This document shows positions 18,258-21,555 of a stretch of 64,000 nt of DNA, piece after piece. A model generated the notes under the pieces. The model was not told where the DNA came from, did no database searches, and saw only the letters and a program-made list of their open reading frames with translations. Where the stretch lies: assembly GCA_015062445.1 (NCBI GenBank), contig SUUQ01000001.1, positions 62,001 to 126,000 on the forward strand, in the 5' to 3' direction. Position numbers and translations under genes: made by a program. Origin of the DNA: Alphaproteobacteria bacterium. GTDB taxonomy: Bacteria; Pseudomonadota; Alphaproteobacteria; Rs-D84. Each line of letters begins with the position of its first letter. The first letter of the stretch is position 1.

Positions 18258-18333
18258 GCCGGTGTAGCTCAGCTGGTAGAGCATCTCATTCGTAATGAGG
18301 GGGTCGCAGGTTCAAGTCCTGTCACCGGCACCA
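18258..18333 (+). tRNA. tRNA-Thr (CGT)
   Basis: Acceptor GCCGGTG/CACCGGC, anticodon loop TTCGTAA (CGT), T arm GGTTCAAGTCC, encoded CCA. Confidence 0.96.
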
Positions 18334-18380
18334 GTTTTTCCCACCACGTTTATGGGGGGATTTTTTATATATATCTGTAC

Positions 18381-18409
18381 TTGCATTTATTCAAATTACA
18401 GTGTATCCT
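18381..18409 (+). promoter_or_regulatory. ileS promoter
   Basis: TTGCAT, 17 nt, TATCCT. The predicted start is at or just before the ATG of the leader peptide at 18417. Confidence 0.6.
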
Positions 18410-18416
18410 GTGCCAC

Positions 18417-18449
18417 ATGAAACCAACAACAATAATTATTATTAAATAA
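18417..18449 (+). CDS. ileS leader peptide (MKPTTIIIIK)
   Basis: Ten codons with four consecutive isoleucine codons (ATA ATT ATT ATT), then AAA TAA. It begins about 7 nt after the -10 box, so it is probably leaderless, and is followed within 30 nt by an intrinsic terminator before ileS. Runs of the cognate codon are the hallmark of ribosome-mediated attenuation, here sensing Ile-tRNA charging. Confidence 0.75.
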   Translation: MKPTTIIIIK

Positions 18450-18456
18450 TCGGCTG

Positions 18457-18500
18457 GACGCACTTTGGCGGCGGCTGGGGTGCATCGCACCCTTTTTTTA
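18457..18500 (+). terminator. ileS attenuator: terminator and antiterminator
   Basis: Terminator GGGTGC (18478-18483), loop ATC, GCACCC (18487-18492), then seven Ts. The segment GACGCACTT (18457-18465) can pair with GGGTGCATC (18478-18486) with one mismatch, replacing the terminator. A ribosome at the leader stop would cover this segment; one stalled on the Ile codons would not. Confidence 0.75.
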
Positions 18501-18531
18501 ATATAAACAAAATGACGAGGCATCAAGTAAA

Positions 18532-21500
18532 ATGGCATACAAAAAAACAGATACACGCACAAATTTTACAGAACTGGAACAAAACGTCTTGCAGTACTGG
18601 AAAGATAACAACACTTTTCATAAATCATTGGATAAAACAAAATCTGGACGCCCATTTTCTTTCTATGACGGGCCACCATTTGCAAATGGTACACCACACT
18701 GGGGACACCTGGGGGTGACAGTTGTAAAAGATATGGTGTCCAGATTCCAAACAATGAACGGACGATTTGTCAGACGTGAACTGGGGTGGGATTGCCATGG
18801 ATTGCCTGCGGAAAACTCGGTCGAGAAAAAACAGGCACGGGCCGCAAAAGATATCGTTGCAAATGACGGAATCGATGCGTTCTGTGATATGTGCCGCACA
18901 GATGTTATGACGTATTCAAACGAATGGAACCGATTTATCACACGTATGGGACGTTGGGTCGATATCGGTGATGGATATGGATACAAAACCATGGATAAAA
19001 ATTACATGGAATCTATGCTGTGGACACTGAAATCACTGTATGAAAAAGGATTGTTGTACAAAGATTACAGTGTCAATCCGTATGACTGGGTTAATGGCAC
19101 GGTTGTTTCAAATTCCGAAGCATCCAGTGATTACCGTGAAATTGTTGACGATGCATTGACAGTATGGTTCGAACTGAGCAATGGCGACAGGGTCATCGCA
19201 TGGACAACAACCCCCTGGACGTTGCCTGCAAACAGTGCGTTGGCTGTTAATCCAAATATGACATATCTGCGTATGGCGGATTCAGATGGACATGTTTATG
19301 TCGTGGCAGAATCCAGATTAAAGGCATATGAAAAGCAATTCGCAAACGCAACCCAGGTCGGGACTGTGCGTGGAACAGATTTGGTGGGTATGCACTATAC
19401 ACCATTGTTTCCGTACTATGCCGGGGTGTCTGAAATGCTGTTCCAGGTGATACCTGCGGATTATGTTTCAGACAGTGATGGTACAGGTATCGTGCATATC
19501 GCACCAGCATACGGGGCAGACGATTTCTGGGCGGCCAAGGCAATTGACCCAAAATTCCCAGTACTGTTAAATGTAGACGACTATGGCAACTTTGACGAAA
19601 CAGTCGTGGATTTCGCAGGCAGAAATATCTTTGCAGCAACACCTGCGATAATAGATTGGCTGAAGGCAAATGGTAAACTGGTTAAAAAGGAACAGTATAA
19701 ACATTCCTATCCGTTTGGCGACCGGTCAAAAGAAAAACTTATCTATCGTGCGACAGATTCATGGTATATCGATGTGCCGAAAATCAAAGATAAACTGATT
19801 GCAAATAACAATAAGGTTAACTGGACATCGGCAGGTGAACGTTTCCGTTCGTGGATTGAAAATGCACGTCCGTGGTCTATTTCACGAAATCGTTTCTGGG
19901 GGATGCCGTTGCCAATCTGGGAACGCAACGGCGAATACAAGGTATTTGGTTCAATCGCAGAACTGGAAGAGTTCTTTGGAGTAAAAGTCGATGACCTGCA
20001 TCGGCCAACATTAGATAAACTGGAAAAAGACGGATGGAAACGCATAACAGACGTTTTAGATTGCTGGGTGGAAAGTGGTTCTATGCCATGGGCATCGCTG
20101 CATTACCCATTTGAAAATACAGACCGATTTAATGCCAGTTTCCCAGCAGATTATATTATCGAAGGACAAGATCAAACACGTGGCTGGTTCTATGCATTGA
20201 TGGTGTTGGCAACGGCGCTGTTCGATAAACCTGCGTTTATGAGTGTGTCTGCAAATGGTATGGTGGTGGATGAAAACAAGAAAAAGTTTTCTAAATCATT
20301 GCGGAACTTTGTCGACCCATCTGAACAAATCGAACAGTATGGGGCAGATGCGGTGCGGTTGTATATATTGGGGTCAAACTTTATGAAGGCAGAACCAGTA
20401 CCAGTCGACAAAGAAGGAAAAGTGTTCGCAGAATCAACAAAAACAATCCAAACACCACTGTGGAATGCGTACCACTTCTTTACACTGTATGCAAACGCAG
20501 GAAATATAACAGCAACAGAAATAACCAACCCAACAAATGTGCTGGATAAATATATTCTGGCAGAACTGGGGGAATTGGTGCAGACAGTTAAAAAAACACT
20601 GGACGAATACAAACCAGATGCAGCAATCAAAGAATTTGTTCGTTTCTTGGATATACTGAACAACTGGTACATTCGCCGTGGTCGTGCACGGTTCTGGGAC
20701 GAAGAACAAGACGCATTCGATACGTTGTATACAGTGCTGGTCACACTGTGCCAGGTGCTGGCACCGTTCGCACCGTTTGTGTCTGAATATATCTGGCGCA
20801 ATTTGACCGATGGCGAATCTGTGCATTTGACAGATTGGCCATGCGTGATGAACATAGATAACAAAATTATGACCGATATGCGGCGTGTTCAGATGGTCGT
20901 ATCAACCGGTAAACAGTTGCGTGAACAATATAAACTGCGAAACCGCTTGCCATTAAATTCATTGACAGTGGCGGGCGCAAATATGCCGGACTATGCCGAT
21001 ATTATTCAAGATGAACTGAATGTGAAATCCGTTGTATTCCAAGAATCTTTTGGTGATGTCGCAGACAGTTTTGTCTATCTGATTACACCAAAAATAGGCG
21101 CACGTCTGGGCGGGGCATTGAAAGATATTATCCCGGCCGTTAAACGTGGCGATTATGAACTGGTGGGTGATAAACTGGTGGCTGCGGGATACGAATTAAA
21201 TTCAGACGAATTTGAAATGCGTCTGACTGTGCGCAGCGGTATAACAGGAGCAGCACTGGCCGATAATACGGCGGTAATTGTGCTGGATACAGAAACAAAC
21301 GCAGAACTGGTGGCCGAAGGACTGGCAAACGATGCGTTGCGCTTTATCCAGGATACACGCAAGGCAGCAGGGCTGGATGTGTCTGACCGTATCATTTTAA
21401 CGTATTCAGCCGACCCAGCATTGGCAAATGCAATGGAAGCCCATAAAAAACGTATTATGCGTGAGGCGTTAATCGTTGATATGGTTGCGGGCGATGGCGA

Positions 21501-21555
21501 ATACGAAACAGAAATCGAAGGGTATTCGTTGGCAATCTCGGTTAAAAAGGCATAA
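18532..21555 (+). CDS. ileS: Isoleucyl-tRNA synthetase
   Basis: Charges tRNA-Ile. 1007 residues. The class I signature is PHWGHLG near residue 55, and the second motif is KKFSKSLRNF near 585, followed by DPSEQIEQYGADAVRLY. The HWGH form and overall length fit the class 2 IleRS type; members of that type are often less sensitive to mupirocin, but that is not testable here. The editing domain and anticodon-binding domain are in the usual order. Controlled by the leader peptide upstream. Confidence 0.96.
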   Translation: MAYKKTDTRTNFTELEQNVLQYWKDNNTFHKSLDKTKSGRPFSFYDGPPFANGTPHWGHLGVTVVKDMVSRFQTMNGRFVRRELGWDCHGLPAENSVEKKQARAAKDIVANDGIDAFCDMCRTDVMTYSNEWNRFITRMGRWVDIGDGYGYKTMDKNYMESMLWTLKSLYEKGLLYKDYSVNPYDWVNGTVVSNSEASSDYREIVDDALTVWFELSNGDRVIAWTTTPWTLPANSALAVNPNMTYLRMADSDGHVYVVAESRLKAYEKQFANATQVGTVRGTDLVGMHYTPLFPYYAGVSEMLFQVIPADYVSDSDGTGIVHIAPAYGADDFWAAKAIDPKFPVLLNVDDYGNFDETVVDFAGRNIFAATPAIIDWLKANGKLVKKEQYKHSYPFGDRSKEKLIYRATDSWYIDVPKIKDKLIANNNKVNWTSAGERFRSWIENARPWSISRNRFWGMPLPIWERNGEYKVFGSIAELEEFFGVKVDDLHRPTLDKLEKDGWKRITDVLDCWVESGSMPWASLHYPFENTDRFNASFPADYIIEGQDQTRGWFYALMVLATALFDKPAFMSVSANGMVVDENKKKFSKSLRNFVDPSEQIEQYGADAVRLYILGSNFMKAEPVPVDKEGKVFAESTKTIQTPLWNAYHFFTLYANAGNITATEITNPTNVLDKYILAELGELVQTVKKTLDEYKPDAAIKEFVRFLDILNNWYIRRGRARFWDEEQDAFDTLYTVLVTLCQVLAPFAPFVSEYIWRNLTDGESVHLTDWPCVMNIDNKIMTDMRRVQMVVSTGKQLREQYKLRNRLPLNSLTVAGANMPDYADIIQDELNVKSVVFQESFGDVADSFVYLITPKIGARLGGALKDIIPAVKRGDYELVGDKLVAAGYELNSDEFEMRLTVRSGITGAALADNTAVIVLDTETNAELVAEGLANDALRFIQDTRKAAGLDVSDRIILTYSADPALANAMEAHKKRIMREALIVDMVAGDGEYETEIEGYSLAISVKKA

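Follow-up and report, generated by a model that had tools for sequence, protein, structure and literature searches.

The window analysed here, a 64,000-nucleotide stretch from a genome of 1.05 Mb (G000), raises the question of how expression of ileS, the gene for isoleucyl-tRNA synthetase, is controlled. An earlier note had proposed that the gene is preceded by an isoleucine leader-peptide attenuator. The ileS product scored 775 bits against TIGR00392 (cut-off 621), and its closest relatives (about 70-94% identity) come from gut alphaproteobacterial MAGs, including Candidatus Enterousia. For the order Rs-D84, a published study describes genomes of about 1 Mb in which amino-acid biosynthesis is reportedly absent, as are standard amino-acid or peptide transporters (PMC12306168); given the reported absence of biosynthesis, a synthetase gene would be a sensible remaining target for this type of control. 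From sequence comparisons and folding models, we put the probability that ileS is controlled by ribosome-mediated transcription attenuation at roughly 0.88. The features of the locus are collected in Table 1.

Table 1. Features upstream of and including ileS (positions in the window)
Feature	Position	Strand	Basis
tRNA-Thr (CGT)	18258..18333	+	ARAGORN, Rfam, relatives
-35-like box TTGCAT, candidate leader promoter	18381..18386	+	Pattern recurs in relatives
-10-like box TATCCT	18404..18409	+	Pattern; ends 7 nt 5' of leader ATG
Leader ORF MKPTTIIIIK (stop), four Ile codons at 18432-18443	18417..18449	+	Sequence; conserved in 66 distinct sequences
1:2 'protector' hairpin, 18451-18456/18472-18477 with 18459-18461/18468-18470	18451..18477	+	MFE fold
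Antiterminator (2:3), GCACUUUGGC (18460-18469) pairs with GCUGGGGUGC (18474-18483)	18460..18483	+	Folding, compensatory changes
Intrinsic terminator (3:4), GGGGUGC-AUC-GCACCCU, U-run 18493-18499	18477..18499	+	Folding, covariation
ileS, isoleucyl-tRNA synthetase, 1007 aa, putatively regulated gene	18532..21555	+	TIGR00392

The leader ORF and its candidate promoter

The ten-codon leader with four consecutive Ile codons described in the earlier note can be read directly in the sequence (ATG AAA CCA ACA ACA ATA ATT ATT ATT AAA TAA). Among dinucleotide shuffles of 18331-18540, 0.17% contained a short ORF with IIII. When both strands of the 64-kb window were scanned, no second short ORF combined an Ile run of at least three with a strong terminator in the next 130 nt; the remaining matches of the scan were runs of residues other than Ile. 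We then compared 66 distinct leaders taken from upstream of ileS, the window's own included. Exactly four Ile codons are present in 59 (three or five in the remainder), 53 are ten codons long, and in 52 the last residue before the stop is Lys. Substitutions within the Ile run (n = 43) are distributed 35:5:3 over codon positions 3, 2 and 1; as judged from these alignments, the Ile codons are maintained through synonymous change.

Most relatives in which the leader has no adjacent tRNA gene carry a CTTG- or CTGG-type box followed, after 17 nt, by a TAnnnT-type box that ends 6-10 nt before the leader ATG, and the two boxes of the window match this promoter-like layout. About 24 others have the leader ORF 9-23 nt behind the CCA of a tRNA-Thr gene. 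Either layout, the promoter spacing or the nearby tRNA, implies that the 5' UTR is very short or missing and that there is no Shine-Dalgarno sequence. Because the -10-like box of the window is so close to the ATG, transcription would start approximately at the ATG itself. The leader mRNA is probably leaderless, with the start site placed from this spacing and the promoter assigned by pattern. In the window, the segment from 18334 to 18417 holds a terminator-like hairpin and T-run belonging to the tRNA-Thr gene (about 18340-18370), and then the promoter-like element before the leader. That the leader sits directly behind the tRNA gene in about 24 relatives and not in the window indicates that members of the genus have come to differ in how the ileS promoter is arranged.

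Antiterminator, terminator and the position of the ribosome

The terminator proposed earlier, GGGTGC-ATC-GCACCC with seven T residues (18493-18499) ending 32 nt 5' of the ileS ATG at 18532, was confirmed in the sequence. The alternative stem, placed in the earlier note at 18457-18465/18478-18486, had the right register, but a mismatch interrupts it, conservation does not extend to its two outermost pairs, and it leaves out four inner pairs. The best antiterminator stem is longer, with 10 bp and a free energy of -14.3 kcal/mol. Its 3' arm overlaps the 5' arm of the terminator, and the two hairpins are mutually exclusive. The 1:2 hairpin belongs to the fold of lowest energy computed for the entire leader and was also predicted in the other examples inspected, with comparative support weaker than for the antiterminator or the terminator.

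Folding was modelled for 65 sequences, the window and 64 distinct relatives; L055 was omitted because its sequence is too divergent. The leader, an antiterminator of 9-12 bp and a terminator were found in all 65. With 18447, where the leader stop codon begins, numbered S1, the antiterminator of the window extends from S14 to S37 and the terminator from S31 to S47. The antiterminator starts at nucleotides 10-14 from the first stop base in 64 of the 65 sequences, and at nucleotides 9-13 in all 13 sister-genus regions examined.

Covariation was computed on a 62-row alignment, in which four antiterminator pairs and two terminator pairs have changed on both sides. When the partner columns were slid, pairing fell from 92% to 32-57% for the antiterminator and from 98% to 37-69% for the terminator. 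Two triples of alignment positions, 39/61/72 and 37/63/70, change in concert from G-C-G to A-U-A, one being carried by the window, L001 and L002 and the other by L049. Since the window, L001 and L002 are close relatives, their triple probably reflects one event. In this alignment, both hairpins are preserved by three-way compensatory changes. Moreover, the apical part of the antiterminator stem, which lies outside the terminator, varies and yet stays paired (GGC/GCU, GAC/GUC, GCAG/CUGU and GCC/GGC, compared by eye). Shuffle controls gave a modest signal, because the element is highly conserved; our covariation argument rests on the position triples and the apical stem, not on these controls.

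These observations bear on the possibility that the terminator is constitutive, for example that of the upstream tRNA-Thr unit, and that the leader ORF is translated but non-regulatory. A terminator behind a tRNA gene is normal, and one same-genus locus (L028) has a plain terminator between tRNA-Thr and ileS and no leader. In the window, however, tRNA-Thr has a hairpin and T-run of its own, and a promoter-like element intervenes before the leader. An antiterminator apical stem that is conserved and varies while paired, and Ile codons kept by synonymous change, also speak against a constitutive terminator. We therefore regard a constitutive terminator as improbable, even if it is the best placed of the alternatives.

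In the attenuation mechanism that we favor, RNA polymerase would start at about the leader ATG, and a ribosome would initiate on the leaderless, or nearly leaderless, mRNA and translate MKPTTIIIIK. With Ile-tRNA(Ile) scarce, the ribosome would be expected to stall on the Ile codons, which lie ahead of the antiterminator, and to weaken the small 1:2 hairpin; 18460-18469 could then pair with 18474-18483 ahead of synthesis of the terminator 3' arm, and the polymerase would enter ileS. With plentiful charged tRNA, a ribosome at the stop codon would cover the start of the antiterminator 5' arm, and with the antiterminator blocked the terminator (18477-18493) would form and transcription would end before ileS. 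The predicted net response is an increase in ileS expression when charged Ile-tRNA is short.

We computed the energetics of this switch at 37 °C, leaving tertiary structure and the polymerase aside, and assuming a ribosome edge 12-15 nt away from the A-site codon, counted from that codon's first base. With the edge at S7-S11, as when the A site holds the last Ile codons, the probability of the antiterminator before the terminator 3' arm emerges was 1.0. The mean probability at this stage was 0.5 with the edge at S14 and 0.05 at S16 (0.75 and 0.22, respectively, for the window itself), and in complete folds the terminator was favored in all 65 sequences once the edge was at or past S14. The modelled geometry agrees with the earlier proposal that the Ile codons and the stop codon place the ribosome suitably for the switch, but with a qualification. 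As the antiterminator starts at nucleotides 10-14, a ribosome on the stop codon must cover the RNA to about nucleotide 13-14 or beyond, a footprint at the upper end of the normal range; with a shorter one, just 0-3 bp of the antiterminator would be blocked. In ribosome-free equilibrium, the fold containing the terminator and the 1:2 hairpin was favored in about 72% of the sequences and the antiterminator in about 28%; for a ribosome stalled at the first Ile codon, the response would therefore depend on kinetics. Equilibrium folding of the free RNA was also considered as a guide to the direction of the switch, and was found indecisive; folding order and ribosome position were needed.

Distribution of the element among relatives

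When Ile-rich leaders were sought upstream of ileS in relatives, as the earlier note had advised, they proved to be conserved across the genus and in most sister genera, so that the refuting outcome named there, a leader without conservation, did not occur. A covariance model of the element gave strong matches (E of 7.5e-9 or better) in 64 of 70 same-genus genomes; the remaining six lacked the leader (G074), had no full ileS match, or were incomplete. There was one match per genome, except in G018, which has a second at a contig end, and those compared with ileS coordinates lay just 5' of ileS. Besides the ileS site, the model found just one match in the source genome, with E = 0.29. Outside the genus, 13 of 19 ileS upstream regions at the family level have an Ile-run leader of the same layout and six do not. 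Twelve of these 13 leaders are directly comparable and one, L122, has a differing hairpin sequence; a single genome contains two of the 13 as copies. Among 15 sampled ileS upstream regions from other families of the order, an Ile leader of the same layout was found in none, and at the class level one of 30 ileS genes (L179) has an Ile leader, of a different kind.

Three of these loci differ from the rest. In a sister genus (L122/L055, genome G149), the leader reads MTTIIIF before its stop codon and the two-hairpin layout is kept with an almost wholly different hairpin sequence. The locus of another alphaproteobacterial family (L179, genome G207) has the leader MSDIRSISIIISIIIP, ending at a stop codon, some 300 nt ahead of the signature motif of ileS and followed directly by an ATCCC-TTA-GGGGAT hairpin with a U-rich tail. 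The same-genus genome G074 (L028/L152) has no leader or attenuator, and a plain terminator hairpin lies between tRNA-Thr and ileS.

Because ileS is kept without the leader in one same-genus genome (L028 in G074) and in six family-level genomes, the leader is dispensable. The distribution over the genus, its sister genera and the other families suggests that the ancestor of the family most likely already had the element, with several losses since. The conservation strongly supports the Ile attenuator and, extending as it does over dozens of species, is in our judgment the decisive evidence that the arrangement is real.

The comparison also speaks to the possibility that the RNA is sensed otherwise, with IleRS binding its own mRNA or a tRNA binding a T-box-like element, and with the leader ORF secondary. 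In E. coli, the threonyl-tRNA synthetase regulates its own gene, thrS, by binding the mRNA, which sets a precedent for the former. For the latter, translational ileS T-boxes occur in Actinobacteria (PMC1262725). A T-box match was found neither in the window at the gathering threshold nor on 18331-18560 at E values up to 10, and the element matched no other Rfam family, the Trp, His, Thr, Leu, Phe and other leader families among those searched. Moreover, the distant relative L122 has changed its hairpin sequence and kept the Ile run, and no loop resembling an Ile anticodon was apparent by eye in the hairpins, so that sensing of this type is slightly less probable still than a constitutive terminator. 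Least probable of all is a role in trans for the leader peptide or the terminated transcript, besides or instead of attenuation in cis, as reported for rnTrpL/peTrpL of Sinorhizobium meliloti, also a leaderless attenuator transcript (PMC7298713), since the residues outside the Ile run vary freely between species, which argues against a conserved function of the peptide.

In the same genus, thrS has a Thr-rich leader of its own, for example MNLFKSFFTTTTTTPLGV with its stop codon in the source genome (G000:C9, about 209196-209252, outside the window). This leader ends with an ACCCC-NNN-GGGGGU hairpin about 80 nt before thrS (L207-L221), and 25 of 35 same-genus genomes show the pattern, as does one genome of another family. 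A codon-run scan of the source genome gave no convincing leader before leuS, valS, metG or pheS, and when two class Ib (Trp/Tyr) and several class II synthetase genes were scanned, only thrS was convincing. We see about even odds that ileS has, throughout the family, a leaderless Ile attenuator as its principal sensor of charging, as part of a wider attenuation of synthetase genes, ileS and thrS, that followed the loss of biosynthetic operons in gut bacteria unable to make amino acids.

Relation to known attenuators

Attenuation of ileS would extend the classical mechanism to this gene in uncultured bacteria whose genomes measure about 1 Mb and reportedly encode no amino-acid biosynthesis. A switch of this kind suggests that such cells still monitor tRNA charging, adjusting the synthetase rather than the amino-acid supply, and that a regulator of about 85 nt can survive strong genome reduction. 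The covariance model and the natural variants, losses included, offer material for the study of ribosome-RNA polymerase coupling on a leaderless mRNA.

The earlier note knew of no described attenuation of ileS. In the open-access literature, a search that did not extend to the 2004 and 2010 attenuator surveys, we likewise found no mechanism; a short ORF upstream of ileS had, however, already been named in Caulobacter crescentus ('ileS leader CDS', CCNA_03934; PMC4117421). In the portion of this ribosome-profiling study that concerns it, the ORF serves as a negative control and no mechanism is given, and the likeness to the present leader lies in a short ORF upstream of ileS in an alphaproteobacterium. 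The Caulobacter lineage is distant: class-level ileS products from outside the order are about 29-47% identical to Enterousia IleS. A key survey of aminoacyl-tRNA synthetase attenuators (Lopatovskaya 2010) is cited in PMC4833913.

The actinobacterial ileS T-box is also an RNA control by Ile-tRNA charging, but it senses the tRNA directly and has no leader peptide. The pheST attenuator of Gammaproteobacteria, likened here by mechanism, acts on a synthetase gene, although for a different amino acid and gene. The same applies to the attenuators predicted for trpS and leuS in Streptomyces (PMC1262725), whereas the element described here belongs to Alphaproteobacteria. Closer in lineage is the leaderless trpL of S. 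meliloti, also alphaproteobacterial and transcribed from the leader ATG, which controls trpE(G) and senses Trp (PMC7298713). The trpL, hisL, thrL, ilv and leu leaders likewise combine a short ORF, tandem codons for the sensed amino acid, 1:2, 2:3 and 3:4 hairpins and a terminator before the gene; unlike these, the present element would target a tRNA synthetase gene, in bacteria for which amino-acid biosynthesis is reported absent, and it matches no Rfam family. As far as can be read from sequence, the element shares the features of ribosome-mediated attenuators: a predicted short leader ORF between promoter and gene, tandem cognate codons (Ile before ileS), an intrinsic terminator that separates the leader from the gene (all 65 sequences modelled), an antiterminator that excludes the terminator through a common arm (65/65, with three-way compensation), and codon and stop positions computed, for the assumed footprint edge, to be able to switch the fold.
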